A stretch of 20,339 nt of DNA, taken from positions 1 to 20,339 of IMG/VR virus record IMGVR_UViG_3300025840_004349; one strand, written 5' to 3'. The position numbers and the translations under genes were made by a program. The notes under the pieces were generated by a model. The model saw only the letters and a list, made by a program, of their open reading frames with translations, ran no database searches and was not told the DNA's origin. Shown in pieces: positions 2,634 through 20,050 of the stretch. The first letter of the stretch is position 1; every line of letters begins with the position of its first letter. This DNA is from a virus.

Positions 2634-2697
2634 TGAAAAACTGAATAGGATTCAACATTTTCAAGAACTACATAAAGCAATGGAGATAATCAAATGA
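2620..2697 (+). CDS. Possible 25-aa peptide
   Basis: ATG 2620 encodes MEEINEKLNRIQHFQELHKA and ends IIK*. It overlaps the previous gene by 14 bases and ends in ATGA at 2694-2697, coupling it to the Gnd-like gene. It may be a real helical peptide or only a translational bridge that carries ribosomes to 2694. Confidence 0.35.
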   Translation: MEEINEKLNRIQHFQELHKAMEIIK

Positions 2698-3218
2698 AAG
2701 TAGGAATGATCGGACTGGGACGAATGGGGGAAGGAATGTCCCGTCGTCTCATTGCACACGGACACGAAGTATGGGGTTACAGGAATAACTATGCAAAAGC
2801 TGAAGAACAATATGAAAAGGGTTATATCAGTGGATGTACCACTTCTGTGGAAAGCCTTGTTCAAGTAATGCATAGTTACAAGTCTGTTTCTGATAAGAAA
2901 CCAGCAGTTTTTATGATGGTTGTACCAGCAGAAACAGTAGAGGAAACGATCAATGGGTTACTACGATTATGTCGTGAAGGCGATATTGTTATTAATTATG
3001 GCAATAGCAGTATTGAGGACTGTTGGAAAAGAGAAGAGTATTGTTCAAAATTGGGCATCGCATATCTTGACTGTGATACTAATCGTGATGTTTGTGATGT
3101 GGATGGTGGATACAACTTTATGGTTAGGGGTGGAAATACTGCAATCGCCACTTGTAAAGGCATTTTTCACGCAATCGGACAGTGGGACTATACCACCAAA
3201 CATTCATCTATAATCTAA
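2694..3218 (+). CDS. 6-phosphogluconate dehydrogenase-like protein, NAD-binding domain only
   Basis: The N-terminus has the Rossmann dinucleotide motif GLGRMGEGMSRRL (about residues 7-19). Further family features are VVPAETVEETI, the strand before INYGNSS, and a GYNFMVRGG segment near residue 139 that matches the G-Y-x-x-M-V-x-G-G end of the Gnd/3-hydroxyisobutyrate dehydrogenase N-domain. Full enzymes have about 300-480 residues; this one stops at 174, just where the helical domain with the catalytic Lys should begin. The usual DxGTSGG substrate loop reads DCDTNRDVCDVDGG. Cyanophages are known to carry gnd for pentose-phosphate NADPH supply. This copy probably cannot catalyse the normal reaction unless the rest is supplied elsewhere. 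The next gene starts with a TAATG overlap, so the shortening looks settled rather than a recent frameshift. Confidence 0.75.
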   Translation: MKVGMIGLGRMGEGMSRRLIAHGHEVWGYRNNYAKAEEQYEKGYISGCTTSVESLVQVMHSYKSVSDKKPAVFMMVVPAETVEETINGLLRLCREGDIVINYGNSSIEDCWKREEYCSKLGIAYLDCDTNRDVCDVDGGYNFMVRGGNTAIATCKGIFHAIGQWDYTTKHSSII

Positions 3219-4068: not shown

Positions 4069-4284
4069 ATGGCACTGACTGAAAAATTCAAGAAAGACAT
4101 TAGCACTCTTCGTGCTGCTGCTAATGGAGATTTTTATCTTGATGTAAAGAATCCGAAACTTTACAAAAAAGTCCGTCGATATTATGAGTCAGAAGGAGTA
4201 GTATTCTCCGGTGACCCTCTTGATGATTATGAAATTCTTATGGAATATATCTATCAAGATCTTGAGACTGTTGAGGTTGCTTGA
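4069..4284 (+). CDS. Hypothetical protein, 71 aa
   Basis: The soluble protein begins MALTEKFKKDISTLRAAANG and contains a Lys/Arg/Tyr-rich centre (KLYKKVRRYYESEG) and an acidic end. It is the first gene behind the promoter at 4017-4045. Its TGA overlaps the ATG of the next gene. The style matches conserved short cyanomyovirus proteins; no function is known to me. Confidence 0.7.
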   Translation: MALTEKFKKDISTLRAAANGDFYLDVKNPKLYKKVRRYYESEGVVFSGDPLDDYEILMEYIYQDLETVEVA

Positions 4285-4547
4285 TGAAAGTTGTGAAAAA
4301 ACCAACTGTTCTTATGGAGCAGTTTCCTTATCGTTATGTTCAGGTTGGTAAGTTGGAAATCAACGGAAAACCAGATTGCCGTATTCAAAAAGTAGATTCT
4401 TATACTGGTCGTTATCGAGATATGTATCTCTGTGATAATGAAATGCAACTTATGACTGCAATGGAAGATTTTGAGTACACCAAGTGGTTGGACCCAGATA
4501 TGGTTCCTTGTTATGTCAAGGACGATGAAGACACGGATGGTCTATAA
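4284..4547 (+). CDS. Hypothetical protein, 87 aa
   Basis: The start is ATG 4284, sharing a base with the previous TGA, with GAGGT at 4273-4277 as ribosome binding site. A TTG one codon earlier is less likely. The protein is soluble, with a basic N-terminal half (MKVVKKPTVLMEQFPYRYVQVG) and an acidic C-terminal end (KDDEDTDGL). The family is not recognised. The hairpin-rich non-coding segment begins right after its stop. Confidence 0.7.
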   Translation: MKVVKKPTVLMEQFPYRYVQVGKLEINGKPDCRIQKVDSYTGRYRDMYLCDNEMQLMTAMEDFEYTKWLDPDMVPCYVKDDEDTDGL

Positions 4548-4743
4548 CAGCACTGGTCGGTTGAAGTATCCCCTTCATTCCCGAGTCTTGGAATGACTCT
4601 AAACTTACCCTGGTGGAGTCATTAGACCCTATTATGAGTTTCCAATCTCTCTCAAGGATTGGTGGTGCGGATGGGATCTCTCTCCCGCCCTGTTTCTTGC
4701 TTCAGGTTAAAGAGCAAGTGGCGTGCATGAAAAGACCGTATGA
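4548..4743 (+). ncRNA. Candidate structured RNA (possible wcaG-type leader)
   Basis: This non-coding stretch has at least four clean hairpins by eye: TGAAG/CTTCA (4562-4566/4573-4577), an 8-bp stem AATGACTC/GAGTCATT (4592-4599/4616-4623), CCAATC/GATTGG (4642-4647/4657-4662) and CTTGCT/AGCAAG (4696-4701/4713-4718). A GGGA/TCCC or GCGG/CCGC pairing lies at 4667-4688. It ends at the terminator 4744-4771 and sits directly upstream of the sugar operon. The wcaG RNA motif is known from cyanophages upstream of polysaccharide (wcaG) and high-light genes, so the context fits. I could not compare it with the consensus. It might instead be an independent small RNA or a 3' UTR. Confidence 0.55.
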
Positions 4744-4771
4744 AGCAGGGTTGCATAAACTCTGCTTTTTT
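4744..4771 (+). terminator. Rho-independent terminator overlapping a promoter
   Basis: AGCAGGGTT (4744-4752) and AACTCTGCT (4758-4766) form a 9-bp stem (one G-U) with loop GCATA and a run of six T (4766-4771). The -35 box of the following promoter (TTGCAT, 4751-4756) lies at the top of the stem and in the loop. Confidence 0.85.
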
Positions 4772-4779
4772 AGTATAAT
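4751..4779 (+). promoter_or_regulatory. Promoter of the sugar operon
   Basis: TTGCAT (4751-4756), 17 bases, then TATAAT (4774-4779). It predicts a start near 4786, about 20 bases before the ATG at 4806. It lies inside and just after the terminator hairpin, so read-through transcripts and new transcripts both converge on the operon. Confidence 0.72.
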
Positions 4780-4805: not shown

Positions 4806-5858
4806 ATGTCCGACTATAAGAAGACGGCACTCGTGCTCGGTGCTGGTGGATTTATTGGAAGTCATATGGTCAAACGACTTCGGCAGGAGGGATATTGGGT
4901 TCGAGGTGTAGATCTCAAACTTCCCGAGTATTGTGCATCTCATGCAAATGAGTTTATTGTTGGTGATCTGAGGGACACACGTTTTGTTGCTCGGTGCATT
5001 CGATATGCTGGAGAAACTGGTAACTTCTACGTCAGTATCGTAGATAAGTTCCTGGAACCCTTCGATGAGATCTATCAGTTTGCTGCTGATATGGGTGGTG
5101 CAGGTTTTGTTTTCACTGGTGAGAACGATGCAGACATTATGCACAACTCTGTGTCTATCAATCTAAACGTTCTTGAAGAGCAACGCAAATGGAACGAAAT
5201 TACAGAGCAGAATAAGACAAAGATTTTCTATTCTGGATCAGCATGTATGTATCCAGAGCACAATCAACTTGATCCTGATAATCCAGATTGCCGTGAATCA
5301 TCTGCATACCCCGCTGATCCAGATAGTGAATATGGATGGGAAAAACTCTTCTCCGAGAGACTTTACCTTGCTTACAACCGTAATCATGGGATCCCTGTTC
5401 GTGTTGCTCGTTACCATAATATCTTTGGTCCTGAGGGAACCTGGAACGGTGGAAGAGAGAAAGCACCAGCTGCAATCTGCCGTAAAGTCGCTTACCTCCC
5501 GGAGCAAGGTGGATCAATCGAAGTGTGGGGAGATGGTCAACAAACTCGTTCCTTCCTGTACATTGACGAATGCATTGAAGCAACTCGAAGATTGATGGAC
5601 AGTGACTTCCTTGGTCCTGTGAACATCGGTTCTGAAGAGATGGTTACTATCAATCAACTTGTGGATACTGCTGCCAAAGTTGCAGGTAAAACTGTTGAAA
5701 AGAATCATATTGATGGACCTCTTGGTGTTCGTGGTCGCAACTCTAATAATGATCTGATTCGTGAAAAGTTGGGTTGGGATTATTCCCAAACTCTTGAAGA
5801 AGGTATTCGTAAAACTTATTCGTGGATTGAAAATGAAATTAATCGCACACAGAGGTAA
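4806..5858 (+). CDS. GDP-mannose 3,5-epimerase-like SDR protein
   Basis: This 350-residue extended short-chain dehydrogenase/reductase has the NAD motif GAGGFIG (12-18), the active-site Ser segment SGSACMYP (143-150) and catalytic YGWEK (176-180). The stretch HNIFGPEGTWNGGREKAPAA (204-223) and AADMGGAGF (93-101) are hallmarks of GDP-mannose 3,5-epimerase, which turns GDP-D-mannose into GDP-L-galactose or GDP-L-gulose in the cytosol. About 20 extra residues (near 65-85) precede the AADMGG segment compared with the plant enzyme. It is the first gene of the sugar operon, behind the promoter at 4751-4779; no strong ribosome binding site is visible. Other extended SDR activities cannot be excluded, but the GME signature is strong. 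Confidence 0.82.
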   Translation: MSDYKKTALVLGAGGFIGSHMVKRLRQEGYWVRGVDLKLPEYCASHANEFIVGDLRDTRFVARCIRYAGETGNFYVSIVDKFLEPFDEIYQFAADMGGAGFVFTGENDADIMHNSVSINLNVLEEQRKWNEITEQNKTKIFYSGSACMYPEHNQLDPDNPDCRESSAYPADPDSEYGWEKLFSERLYLAYNRNHGIPVRVARYHNIFGPEGTWNGGREKAPAAICRKVAYLPEQGGSIEVWGDGQQTRSFLYIDECIEATRRLMDSDFLGPVNIGSEEMVTINQLVDTAAKVAGKTVEKNHIDGPLGVRGRNSNNDLIREKLGWDYSQTLEEGIRKTYSWIENEINRTQR

Positions 5859-9126: not shown

Positions 9127-9848
9127 AAAAGATATTAGTATGTTTTGTTGGCACAGGAACTTATCTAGAGTTTCTGCCTCAATACTATGAGAAAGTAATG
9201 GAGAACTTTTGTCCAGGGTATCTCAAAGATATTCTGGTTCTTACTGATGGTGAACTATCAGATACTCCAGAACACATTATTCTCAGAGAAACAGAACACA
9301 AAGTATGGCCTTACATTACTCTCGAAAGATTTAACATTATTCTAAAGCATAGAGATGTTATTGAAAACTATGATTGGTTTGTATTCATGGATGCAGATAC
9401 GATTGTAAATCAAAGAGTGGAGTATGATGAGTTCTTTGATGAAAGCAAAGATTATCTTGGGGTTCATCACCCTTGCCATTATTTGAAATGGCCTCCACAT
9501 AATCAACCGTATGGATCGTTTGACAGAACTAACTCTAGAGCAAGAGTTGGTGATGATGATGATCTGAGTACTTATTGGCAAGGTTGTCTGTGGGGAGGGA
9601 AGGTTCCTGAAATATTTGCTATCATGGAGGAACTAGATAGTAGAACACAACTTGATCTAAATGATGACATCATTGCACTTTGGCATGATGAAAGTCATTT
9701 GAATAAAATATTCATCGAGAACAAAGATAAGGTTAGAACACTCCCCTCTGATTATGCCTATCCAGAATCTTTTGATGATCTTGTAAAAGATCAACTTGAA
9801 CCAAAGATTGTACATCTTGCAAAAAATAATAGCAAATATCACTCATGA
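9123..9848 (+). CDS. Family GT6 glycosyltransferase (ABO-transferase type)
   Basis: This 241-residue protein has the GT6 signature WHDESHLNK (187-195), which in mammalian ABO transferases and alpha-1,3-galactosyltransferase binds acceptor and donor. A metal-binding DxD (DAD, 90-92, in DWFVFMDADT) and the HHPCHY segment (115-120) match the family order. GT6 enzymes retain the anomeric configuration and add Gal or GalNAc alpha-1,3 to a Gal acceptor. Most bacterial members are reported to have NxN in place of DxD, whereas a cyanophage member keeps DxD, as here. It lacks the N-terminal membrane anchor of animal enzymes and should act in the cytosol. ATGA overlaps couple it on both sides. Confidence 0.87.
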   Translation: MKKILVCFVGTGTYLEFLPQYYEKVMENFCPGYLKDILVLTDGELSDTPEHIILRETEHKVWPYITLERFNIILKHRDVIENYDWFVFMDADTIVNQRVEYDEFFDESKDYLGVHHPCHYLKWPPHNQPYGSFDRTNSRARVGDDDDLSTYWQGCLWGGKVPEIFAIMEELDSRTQLDLNDDIIALWHDESHLNKIFIENKDKVRTLPSDYAYPESFDDLVKDQLEPKIVHLAKNNSKYHS

Positions 9849-11218
9849 CAAAACTTGTTATCTTTGATTTGGATGGTGTCCTTATCGACAGTAAAGATTA
9901 TCACTATGAAGCACTGAACCAAGCATTAGGACCAGAATATGCAATCAGTAGAGAAGATCATGTAAGCATCTATGATGGTTTGCCAACCAAGGCAAAACTA
10001 GAACTTCTTACCAAGAACAAAGGTCTTCCAGTAGATCAGTATGATAAAATCTGGAGAGATAAGCAAGAAGCAACTCTCAAGATTTTTAATGAGTGTGTTG
10101 CTAAAGACTATGAATTGATGGGGTACTTCCAGCAGTTGGTGGACTGTGGTTACAAGATTGCCGTTGCTTCAAATAGTATTCGTAATACTGTTAAGATTAT
10201 TCTTCTTCGTTTGGGATTGCTTGAGTTTGTGGACATGTATGTGTCCAACGAAGACGTTGTTCGTAATAAACCATTTCCGGCAATGTATTGGAAGTGCATG
10301 ACTGCATTGGGTTCTTTACCTAATGATACGGTCATCATTGAAGATAGTCACATTGGTCGTCAGGGAGCTTTGGATAGTAAGTGCCATCTTGTCCCTGTAG
10401 AAAATAGAAAAGATCTTAATCAGAGTAAGATTGATCGAATCAAAAAAATTCTGAATGGTACTAAAGCAAAGGTTGCATGGGAGAGTAAAACAATGAATGT
10501 GTTGATTCCTATGGCAGGTGCTGGTAGTCGATTTGCTAGTCAAGGATATACCTTTCCTAAACCTCTGATTGAAGTTAAAGGTAAACCTATGATCCAAGTC
10601 GTCGTAGAGAATCTCAACATCAAAGCAAACTATACTTTCATTGTCCAGAAAGAGCATTATGAGAAGTATAGTTTGAATTATCTTCTTCCCTTGATTGCGC
10701 CAGGATGTAATATTGTTCAAGTTGATGGTATTACTGAGGGTGCTGCCTGCACCACACTTCTTGCCAAAGAATTCATTAACAATGATGAACCTTTAGTAAT
10801 GGCAAACTCCGATCAGTTTGTTGAGTGGGATTCTAATGAAACTCTTTATGCCTTCCAGAATGGTGAGGTGGATGGTGGTATTGTTACCTTCCCTGCAACT
10901 CATCCCAAGTGGTCTTATGCCAAACTGGGAGAGGATGGATATGTTGCTGAGGTTGCTGAAAAGAAACCGATCTCTGAGCACGCTACTGTTGGTATCTACT
11001 ATTGGAAGAAAGGTTCTGATTATGTGAAGTATGCGGAGCAGATGATTGAGAAGGATATTCGTGTCAATAATGAGTTTTACGTCTGTCCTGTTTTTAATGA
11101 ATCTATCAAAGATAAAAAAAAGATTAGAATTAAAGAGATAGATAAGAGTGGTATGTGGGGTATTGGCACTCCAGAGGATCTTAATTATTTCTTAGAGCAT
11201 TATGATGGAGAGGTTTGA
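9845..11218 (+). CDS. HAD phosphatase/phosphomutase fused to sugar nucleotidyltransferase
   Basis: This 457-residue fusion has two domains. Residues 1-205 are a HAD hydrolase of the beta-phosphoglucomutase type: nucleophile motif DLDGVLIDS (8-16), VASNS (107-111), Lys in NKPFP (141-145) and IIEDS (164-168). Residues 217-457 are a GT-A-fold nucleotidyltransferase: MAGAGSRF (223-230), FPKPLIEV (238-245), NSDQ (321-324) and WGIGTPEDL (438-446). A hexose-phosphate could be isomerised or dephosphorylated by the first part and activated to an NDP-sugar by the second. A Met at the domain joint might allow internal initiation. The substrate is unknown. It pairs with the opposite-order fusion at 11989-13044. 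Confidence 0.8.
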   Translation: MTKLVIFDLDGVLIDSKDYHYEALNQALGPEYAISREDHVSIYDGLPTKAKLELLTKNKGLPVDQYDKIWRDKQEATLKIFNECVAKDYELMGYFQQLVDCGYKIAVASNSIRNTVKIILLRLGLLEFVDMYVSNEDVVRNKPFPAMYWKCMTALGSLPNDTVIIEDSHIGRQGALDSKCHLVPVENRKDLNQSKIDRIKKILNGTKAKVAWESKTMNVLIPMAGAGSRFASQGYTFPKPLIEVKGKPMIQVVVENLNIKANYTFIVQKEHYEKYSLNYLLPLIAPGCNIVQVDGITEGAACTTLLAKEFINNDEPLVMANSDQFVEWDSNETLYAFQNGEVDGGIVTFPATHPKWSYAKLGEDGYVAEVAEKKPISEHATVGIYYWKKGSDYVKYAEQMIEKDIRVNNEFYVCPVFNESIKDKKKIRIKEIDKSGMWGIGTPEDLNYFLEHYDGEV

Positions 11219-19875: not shown

Positions 19876-19999
19876 ACGTTAAGGAATGTAACGTTCTTTA
19901 AACTGTTTGTAACACACTTGCTGAAACGGGTCTAACCACCTTACCGAGGCTAAGCAAGTAAAAGATGCCTCTCATGTCTCTGTCTGAGGGTGACAGAGA
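19876..19999 (+). ncRNA. Structured psbA leader (possible PhotoRC-type RNA)
   Basis: The gap before psbA holds no gene but several perfect stems: ACGTTA/TAACGT (19876-19881/19889-19894), ACTTGCT/AGCAAGT (19916-19922/19953-19959) and TCTCTGTC/GACAGAGA (19977-19984/19992-19999), plus an alternative GAGGC/GCCTC (19946-19950/19967-19971) that could compete with the second. PhotoRC RNA motifs are known upstream of psbA in cyanobacteria and phages, and an antisense RNA is known near psbA in one cyanophage. I could not test either match. Confidence 0.5.
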
Positions 20000-20050
20000 A
20001 ATAAGTATCTCCACCATTTCCCTGATGGACCTACTTACTAGTACAAAACA

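Follow-up and report, generated by a model that had tools for sequence, protein, structure and literature searches.

A modular array of tandem pseudoknot-type RNA units that includes the wcaG RNA in T4-like cyanophages, with a possible role at a transcript 3' end

The window analyzed here (the whole stretch of DNA, 20,339 bases) is an IMG/VR virus fragment whose gene content, including tRNAs, a nucleotide-sugar operon, an Hli-like gene and psbA, is that of a T4-like cyanophage. The region in front of the sugar operon (Table 1) had been described in an earlier note, made from the sequence alone, as a non-coding, hairpin-rich stretch with an intrinsic terminator and as a possible wcaG RNA. Stretch, hairpins and terminator were confirmed, and an Rfam scan identified the RNA as wcaG (RF01761), matched over model positions 1-98 of 98 with 97.6 bits against a gathering cut-off of 42. 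The presence of this RNA in the window is an instance of an already known kind of element, first described by Weinberg et al. in 2010 (PMC2864571) and already annotated in isolates such as S-CREM1 and S-SCSM2R. The marine cyanophage context of wcaG, with exopolysaccharide or high-light genes downstream, is found in the window and varies among the isolates. The structured region, placed by the earlier note in about 225 non-coding bases, does exist, but its left edge lies at 4529, inside the ORF 4281-4547, and it extends over about 240 nt to the end of the terminator. The predicted fold of the region (-73.5 kcal/mol) is more stable than those of 200 dinucleotide shuffles (-61.7 +/- 4.4 kcal/mol; z -2.67), none of which is as stable.

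Table 1. Features of the wcaG locus in the window
Feature	Positions	Strand	Basis or remark
Small gene, phrog_552, function unknown	4069-4284	+	Homologue upstream of the array in 153/190 loci
gp206-like gene, phrog_481, function unknown	4281-4547	+	3' end and stop codon within module 1
Module 1, type IIa pseudoknot-like unit	4529-4556	+	Covariation, 22 distinct relatives
Linker 1 (UCGG..TGAAG/CTTCA..CCC hairpin)	4557-4582	+	Sequence; linker class common to relatives
Module 2, type IIb unit	4583-4613	+	Covariation, 28 distinct relatives
Linker 2 (UGGAGUC..GACCC hairpin)	4614-4635	+	Sequence; linker class
wcaG RNA, Rfam RF01761, full length	4634-4732	+	97.6 bits, E 6.4e-18
Module 3, type I H-type pseudoknot	4636-4667	+	Covariation, 40 relatives
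Linker 3 (CGGAUGGG..CCCGC hairpin; the middle stem of the Rfam wcaG model)	4668-4688	+	Rfam structure line, linker class
Module 4, type I H-type pseudoknot	4689-4723	+	Covariation, 48 relatives
Intrinsic terminator, 11-bp hairpin 4742-4768 and T-run	4742-4771	+	Sequence; homologous arrays
Predicted sigma70-like promoter, overlapping the terminator	4751-4779	+	Consensus match only
First sugar-operon gene, NAD-dependent epimerase/dehydratase	4806-5858	+	PF01370, E 1.5e-35

Elsewhere in the window, a PhotoRC-II RNA match (19904-20012, plus strand; 38.1 bits against a curated cut-off of 39) lies immediately 5' of the psbA start at about 20052. The ORF 2694-3218 (plus strand) encodes a 6-phosphogluconate dehydrogenase of 174 aa with the NAD-binding domain only, compared with about 345 aa in SynMITS9220M01, and is truncated or frameshifted. 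The ORF 9845-11218 (plus strand) combines a HAD phosphatase domain and a sugar nucleotidyltransferase domain in a single protein.

In the IMG/VR contigs collected by the wcaG core (at least 120), each of the two outer elements of wcaG (modules 3 and 4 in the window) follows the pattern A - UUUC - B - A' - (A-rich) - B' - GUGG of an H-type pseudoknot, which we denote the type I unit. In module 3, helix A is formed by GAG (4636-4638) and the A' strand CUC (4649-4651), with UUUC as L1, and helix B by 4643-4648 and B' 4656-4661, followed by GUGGUG; in module 4, the corresponding strands are CCUG (4689-4692) with CAGG (4703-4706), again with UUUC as L1, and 4697-4702 with 4712-4717, followed by GUGGCG. 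Relatives of module 4 were picked out by sequence anchors only, and among the 48 distinct sequences (35 nt) 100% of the cells are paired, the pseudoknot helix included, compared with 26-60% for slid partners. The two middle pairs of A:A' change together in these sequences (UA33/CG9/AU6 and GC37/AU7/UA4). The first type I unit is more variable in geometry than the second, and among the 40 relatives of module 3, 95% of the cells are paired, with two-sided changes, compared with 42-68% in slid controls. The covariation among homologues expected of a structured RNA at this site is thus strong in both wcaG units, and the interpretation of both outer wcaG "hairpins" as H-type pseudoknots, each consisting of two interleaved helices with compensatory changes, is well supported by the comparison of relatives. 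The unpaired UUUC, AAA and GUGGYG are highly conserved in type I units. At the last position of the stem, U-G is the commonest pair (39 of 48), which favors the plus-strand RNA as the working, selected form. The structure line of the Rfam wcaG model is nested and the pseudoknots are absent from it; the text of the 2010 paper (PMC2864571), its figure aside, makes no mention of these pseudoknots for wcaG. We claim no priority for these pseudoknots because the published figure may already draw them. A variant final unit, CUGAG-AUUUA-GUUAUU-..-CUCAG-..-AAUAAC-UUGGCG, was noticed in the loci L103, L219, L255 and L362 (about 1637-1672); its A:A' helix has 5 bp and both sides change between loci.

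The wcaG RNA is preceded in the window by two units of a second type with the pattern AGUC-(7-nt loop with GG)-GACU-(A-rich tail)-CUGG (type II). Module 1 consists of S1 (4529-4532/4540-4543), the loop ACGGATG (4533-4539), the linker ATAACAGCA and CUGG (4553-4556), and overlaps the last codons and the stop codon (TAA, 4545-4547) of the gp206-like ORF. In module 2, S1 (4583-4587/4595-4599) encloses the loop TTGGAAT (4588-4594) and is followed by the tail TAAACTTACC and CUGG (4610-4613). Among the 22 distinct relatives of the short subtype, 100% of the cells are paired and the loop-tail pair 6:22 is CG12/UA10; among the 28 distinct type IIb relatives, 99.6% are paired, with changes at 6:24 (CG17/UA11), 9:23 (AU15/GC12/UA1) and 8:26 (GC25/AU2). 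The loop-tail pairs of type II units covary but make no single regular helix. The suggestion that the RNA might represent a new class does not hold as worded, given that its core belongs to RF01761; for the type II units in front of that core, however, the scan of the window (E <= 1) gave no match to an Rfam family of their own. The perfect 8-bp stem that had been singled out (4592-4599 with 4616-4623) does exist, but at least 7 bp of it are kept in only one of 25 homologous junctions; it was rejected as a functional element because it is not conserved, and the competing S1 hairpin of module 2 covaries instead. Contigs with wcaG, 1.04 Mb in total, contain 155 type II units, every one of them located upstream of wcaG on the same strand; 50 lie at a distance of 302-1032 nt, mostly with an intervening small ORF. 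Such ORFs, present in many loci (e.g., L174 3122-3328), belong to several unrelated families (phrog_35121, phrog_2318 and others), and many of them have a stop codon that overlaps with the first pseudoknot of wcaG.

The window thus contains a chain of four units at 4529-4723, in the order II-II-I-I. For comparison, we used a wcaG-core collection of at least 120 IMG/VR contigs obtained with exact-motif anchors, and two further scans on other exact motifs that, with a custom parser, yielded at least 211 distinct arrays. Across these arrays, whose sequences are related to each other, there are 1 to 5 detected modules in 12 architectures, joined by three classes of linkers that are the same for both unit types. 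Given that the parser by construction ends every array with a type I module, the commonest architectures are I-I (67), I (38, a single-module count that may include arrays with a degenerate unit missed by the parser), II-I-I (32) and II-II-I-I (30), followed by II-I-I-I (17), II-I (13), I-I-I (8) and a few others. The scan for type II units does not involve the final type I anchor, and a canonical wcaG core was found downstream in 61 of the 99 matches listed, many of the remaining ones being shorter or variant arrays. The Rfam wcaG model itself scores a type II and type I pair in S-PM2 (L176, 73.7 bits), L227 and L206, which indicates that the two unit types are interchangeable in one slot; the location of type II almost always 5' of type I shows that order matters. 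Taken from these comparisons, the view that wcaG is the last two units of a modular array of pseudoknot-type RNA is well supported.

The array is a single-copy element: each of the 15 complete isolate genomes contains exactly one wcaG match. A dispersed repeat was rejected on this ground and given that the SynMITS9220M01 genome contains one array. An exact-core scan of 84,980 genomes for a host origin gave 52 matches, none in a titled cyanobacterium and mostly in high-GC actinomycetes, which were read as chance; the plasmids scanned gave zero matches.

On the 5' side, 142 of 190 contigs encode a homologue of the gp206-like protein (phrog_481) ahead of the array, as do 14 of the 16 isolate loci. 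A co-directional ORF ends between -70 and +25 nt from the array start in 169 of the 205 arrays with enough upstream sequence, and its stop codon is located at -1 to +4 nt from the start of the first module in 52 of these 169 loci and inside the first module in 49. This placement, seen in 101 of the 169 loci, would be compatible with pseudoknots that promote read-through of, or frameshifting in, the upstream gene, but the proteins encoded upstream of the arrays fall into 28 sequence clusters, and the frame past the stop is no more open than others (22.6 versus 20.4 and 22.5 codons in 117 loci). The latter result disfavors read-through, and we assign this explanation a minimal probability. On the 3' side, the proteins fall into 34 clusters among 192, the top two being nucleotide-sugar epimerase/dehydratases (89) and cytidylyltransferases (30). 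Many isolates have, as the first gene after the array, a tRNA, a 2OG-oxygenase, a glycosyltransferase, an hli-region gene or a tail-fibre gene. The constancy of the gp206-like gene and the differences among the downstream genes suggest that the array is attached to the upstream locus.

Comparison of homologous loci places the array after a stop codon and before a terminator and a promoter-like site. By consensus calls, a terminator is found 3' of the array in 175 of 206 homologous arrays, in most loci 18-30 nt from the wcaG RNA, and a strong sigma70-like promoter 3' of the array in 148 of 206, whereas the 100 nt on the 5' side contain one in 9 of 206. The claim that the stretch ends in a terminator is correct as far as the terminator goes, but this is not a simple end: the hairpin holds the -35-like box of the predicted promoter (TTGCAT, 4751-4756), followed after a 17-nt spacer by the -10 box TATAAT (4774-4779). 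A first count, limited to terminators for which a promoter could be detected, places the -35 box within the terminator hairpin in 77 of 89 cases, and the SynMITS9220M01 genome contains 6 composites of a terminator and a -10 box on the plus strand, compared with 0-1 in shuffles. Some loci lack the terminator or have a tRNA after the array. The arrays followed by tRNAs have a hairpin with a G-rich/C-rich stem and a conserved UGAC loop, with no T-run and often no -10 box, about 10-30 nt after the array (L300, L262, L020, L021, L022, L037, L060 and L077); the hairpin also occurs at L176, L365 and L367. A role in carrying the -35 box does not explain this conserved hairpin before tRNAs.

This junction also bears on the possibility that the locus is a DNA-level recombination point, a PeSL-like cassette that shuffles cargo genes, with RNA structure being secondary. 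The overlap of terminator and promoter resembles the composite promoter-terminator motifs of T4-like phages named in PMC4503421, the cargo on the 3' side differs, and small ORFs occur between modules. Nevertheless, the compensatory changes in the pseudoknots and the U-G pairs need selection on RNA structure, and isolates have one array per genome, not many, so that we regard such a junction as very unlikely.

Weinberg et al. listed wcaG as a probable riboswitch candidate that is likely cis-regulatory (PMC2864571), and the earlier note read the locus in the same way, as an attenuator or riboswitch. In this reading, the RNA would sense a metabolite or the light state and control terminator read-through into the sugar genes. 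Apart from this published assignment, such a switch would fit the short distance between the RNA and the terminator in most loci, the frequency of sugar genes downstream, and the highly conserved unpaired bases of the type I units. However, in most arrays a promoter-like site separates the RNA from the gene, the reverse of a 5' UTR, in which the RNA is located downstream of the promoter of the controlled gene. In an attenuator, furthermore, the terminator arm should pair better with the upstream RNA of its own locus than with that of other loci; the 5' arm has no such locus-specific complement (15.64 for the own locus versus 15.37 +/- 0.20 for other loci, p 0.12), and no antiterminator pairing was found by this test, the positive control of which was clear (24.2 versus 13.0). 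The number and type of modules vary as well, and the RNA is retained in loci where a tRNA, 2OG-oxygenase, hli or tail-fibre gene comes next. Control of the sugar operon, as claimed earlier, finds no support in these observations; a riboswitch or attenuator appears unlikely, and the long-standing riboswitch guess for wcaG is, on this comparative evidence, probably wrong.

We propose, as a reading with about an even chance of being correct, that the upstream transcript ends in this structured chain of units. The chain 4529-4723 would form the 3' end of the transcript of the phrog_552 and gp206-like phrog_481 genes, transcription would halt at the terminator, and the sugar operon would restart from its own early sigma70-like promoter that overlaps the terminator. 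The chain would shield the mRNA 3' end from exonucleases and insulate the upstream unit, acting mechanically and not by binding a metabolite. We infer folding of the modules in the cell, use of the promoter and mechanical action of the chain; protection from exonucleases is suggested by shape and place only. Several observations weigh against a pure 3'-end element: sugar and nucleotide-sugar genes are still the commonest downstream, which this model leaves unexplained; type II units are nearly always 5' of type I; some loci have no terminator or have a tRNA; and, by a strict rule, a promoter is found in only 6 of the 16 isolate loci, several others leading into tRNAs.

The mechanical role at a transcript end is ranked as most likely, with the riboswitch and a trans-acting RNA as its main rivals. 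The latter would be a stand-alone phage ncRNA that is processed from the intergenic transcript and acts on a protein or RNA of the host or the phage. The single copy at a conserved position in all 15 genomes, the strong conservation of tertiary type, and the tRNA neighbors in places, whose processing would free the RNA, are compatible with such an ncRNA, but its own 5' promoter is found in 9 of 206 loci only, the number of modules is variable, and many phages have coding sequence that runs into the first module; we consider a trans-acting RNA improbable.

In later cyanophage papers, wcaG is again described as a regulator of exopolysaccharide or high-light genes. Should the anatomy outlined here be right, screens for nucleotide-sugar ligands would be misdirected and wcaG should be treated as a transcript-end element; the Rfam model of wcaG should be divided by module; and the arrays, in dozens of variants with 1-5 modules, would offer a clearly delimited natural system for the study of chained pseudoknots on bacterial mRNA.

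Several known elements share features with the array. STAXI (RF01728) is a pseudoknot that occurs in tandem, in two or three copies (PMC2864571); it resembles the array in this respect but is found in Enterobacteriales near DNA-handling genes, and no STAXI match was obtained in the Rfam scan of the window (E <= 1). The same scan of the window gave no match to manA (RF01745), a cyanophage element that is likewise located near tRNAs and sugar genes and, in S-CREM1, near wcaG, but is a separate family. In the PeSL cassettes of T4-like phages (Arbiol 2010 and Comeau 2014, as cited in PMC4503421), a terminator stem-loop and an early promoter are combined between cargo genes, an arrangement that is seen here by consensus only; unlike in PeSL as described there, the -35 box lies inside the terminator hairpin, a conserved pseudoknot array precedes it, and there is one locus per genome. 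With wcaG as defined by RF01761, the window shares the full-length, high-scoring match, the marine cyanophage origin and the adjoining nucleotide-sugar genes; it differs in that the match is the 3' half of a longer modular array, that both outer stems are covarying H-type pseudoknots, which the nested Rfam line lacks, and that the element appears to be located at a transcript 3' end before a promoter-like site and not in a simple 5' UTR. Chains of pseudoknots that block nucleases or modulate translation occur in RNA viruses of plants and animals. By analogy, we tentatively suggest, as a possibility to which we give rather less than even weight, that wcaG, rather than being a riboswitch, is one arrangement of a modular tandem-pseudoknot RNA, built of two interchangeable kinds of units and carried once per genome by T4-like cyanophages, at the 3' terminus of a conserved transcript, which would make it a bacterial-virus counterpart of those chains.
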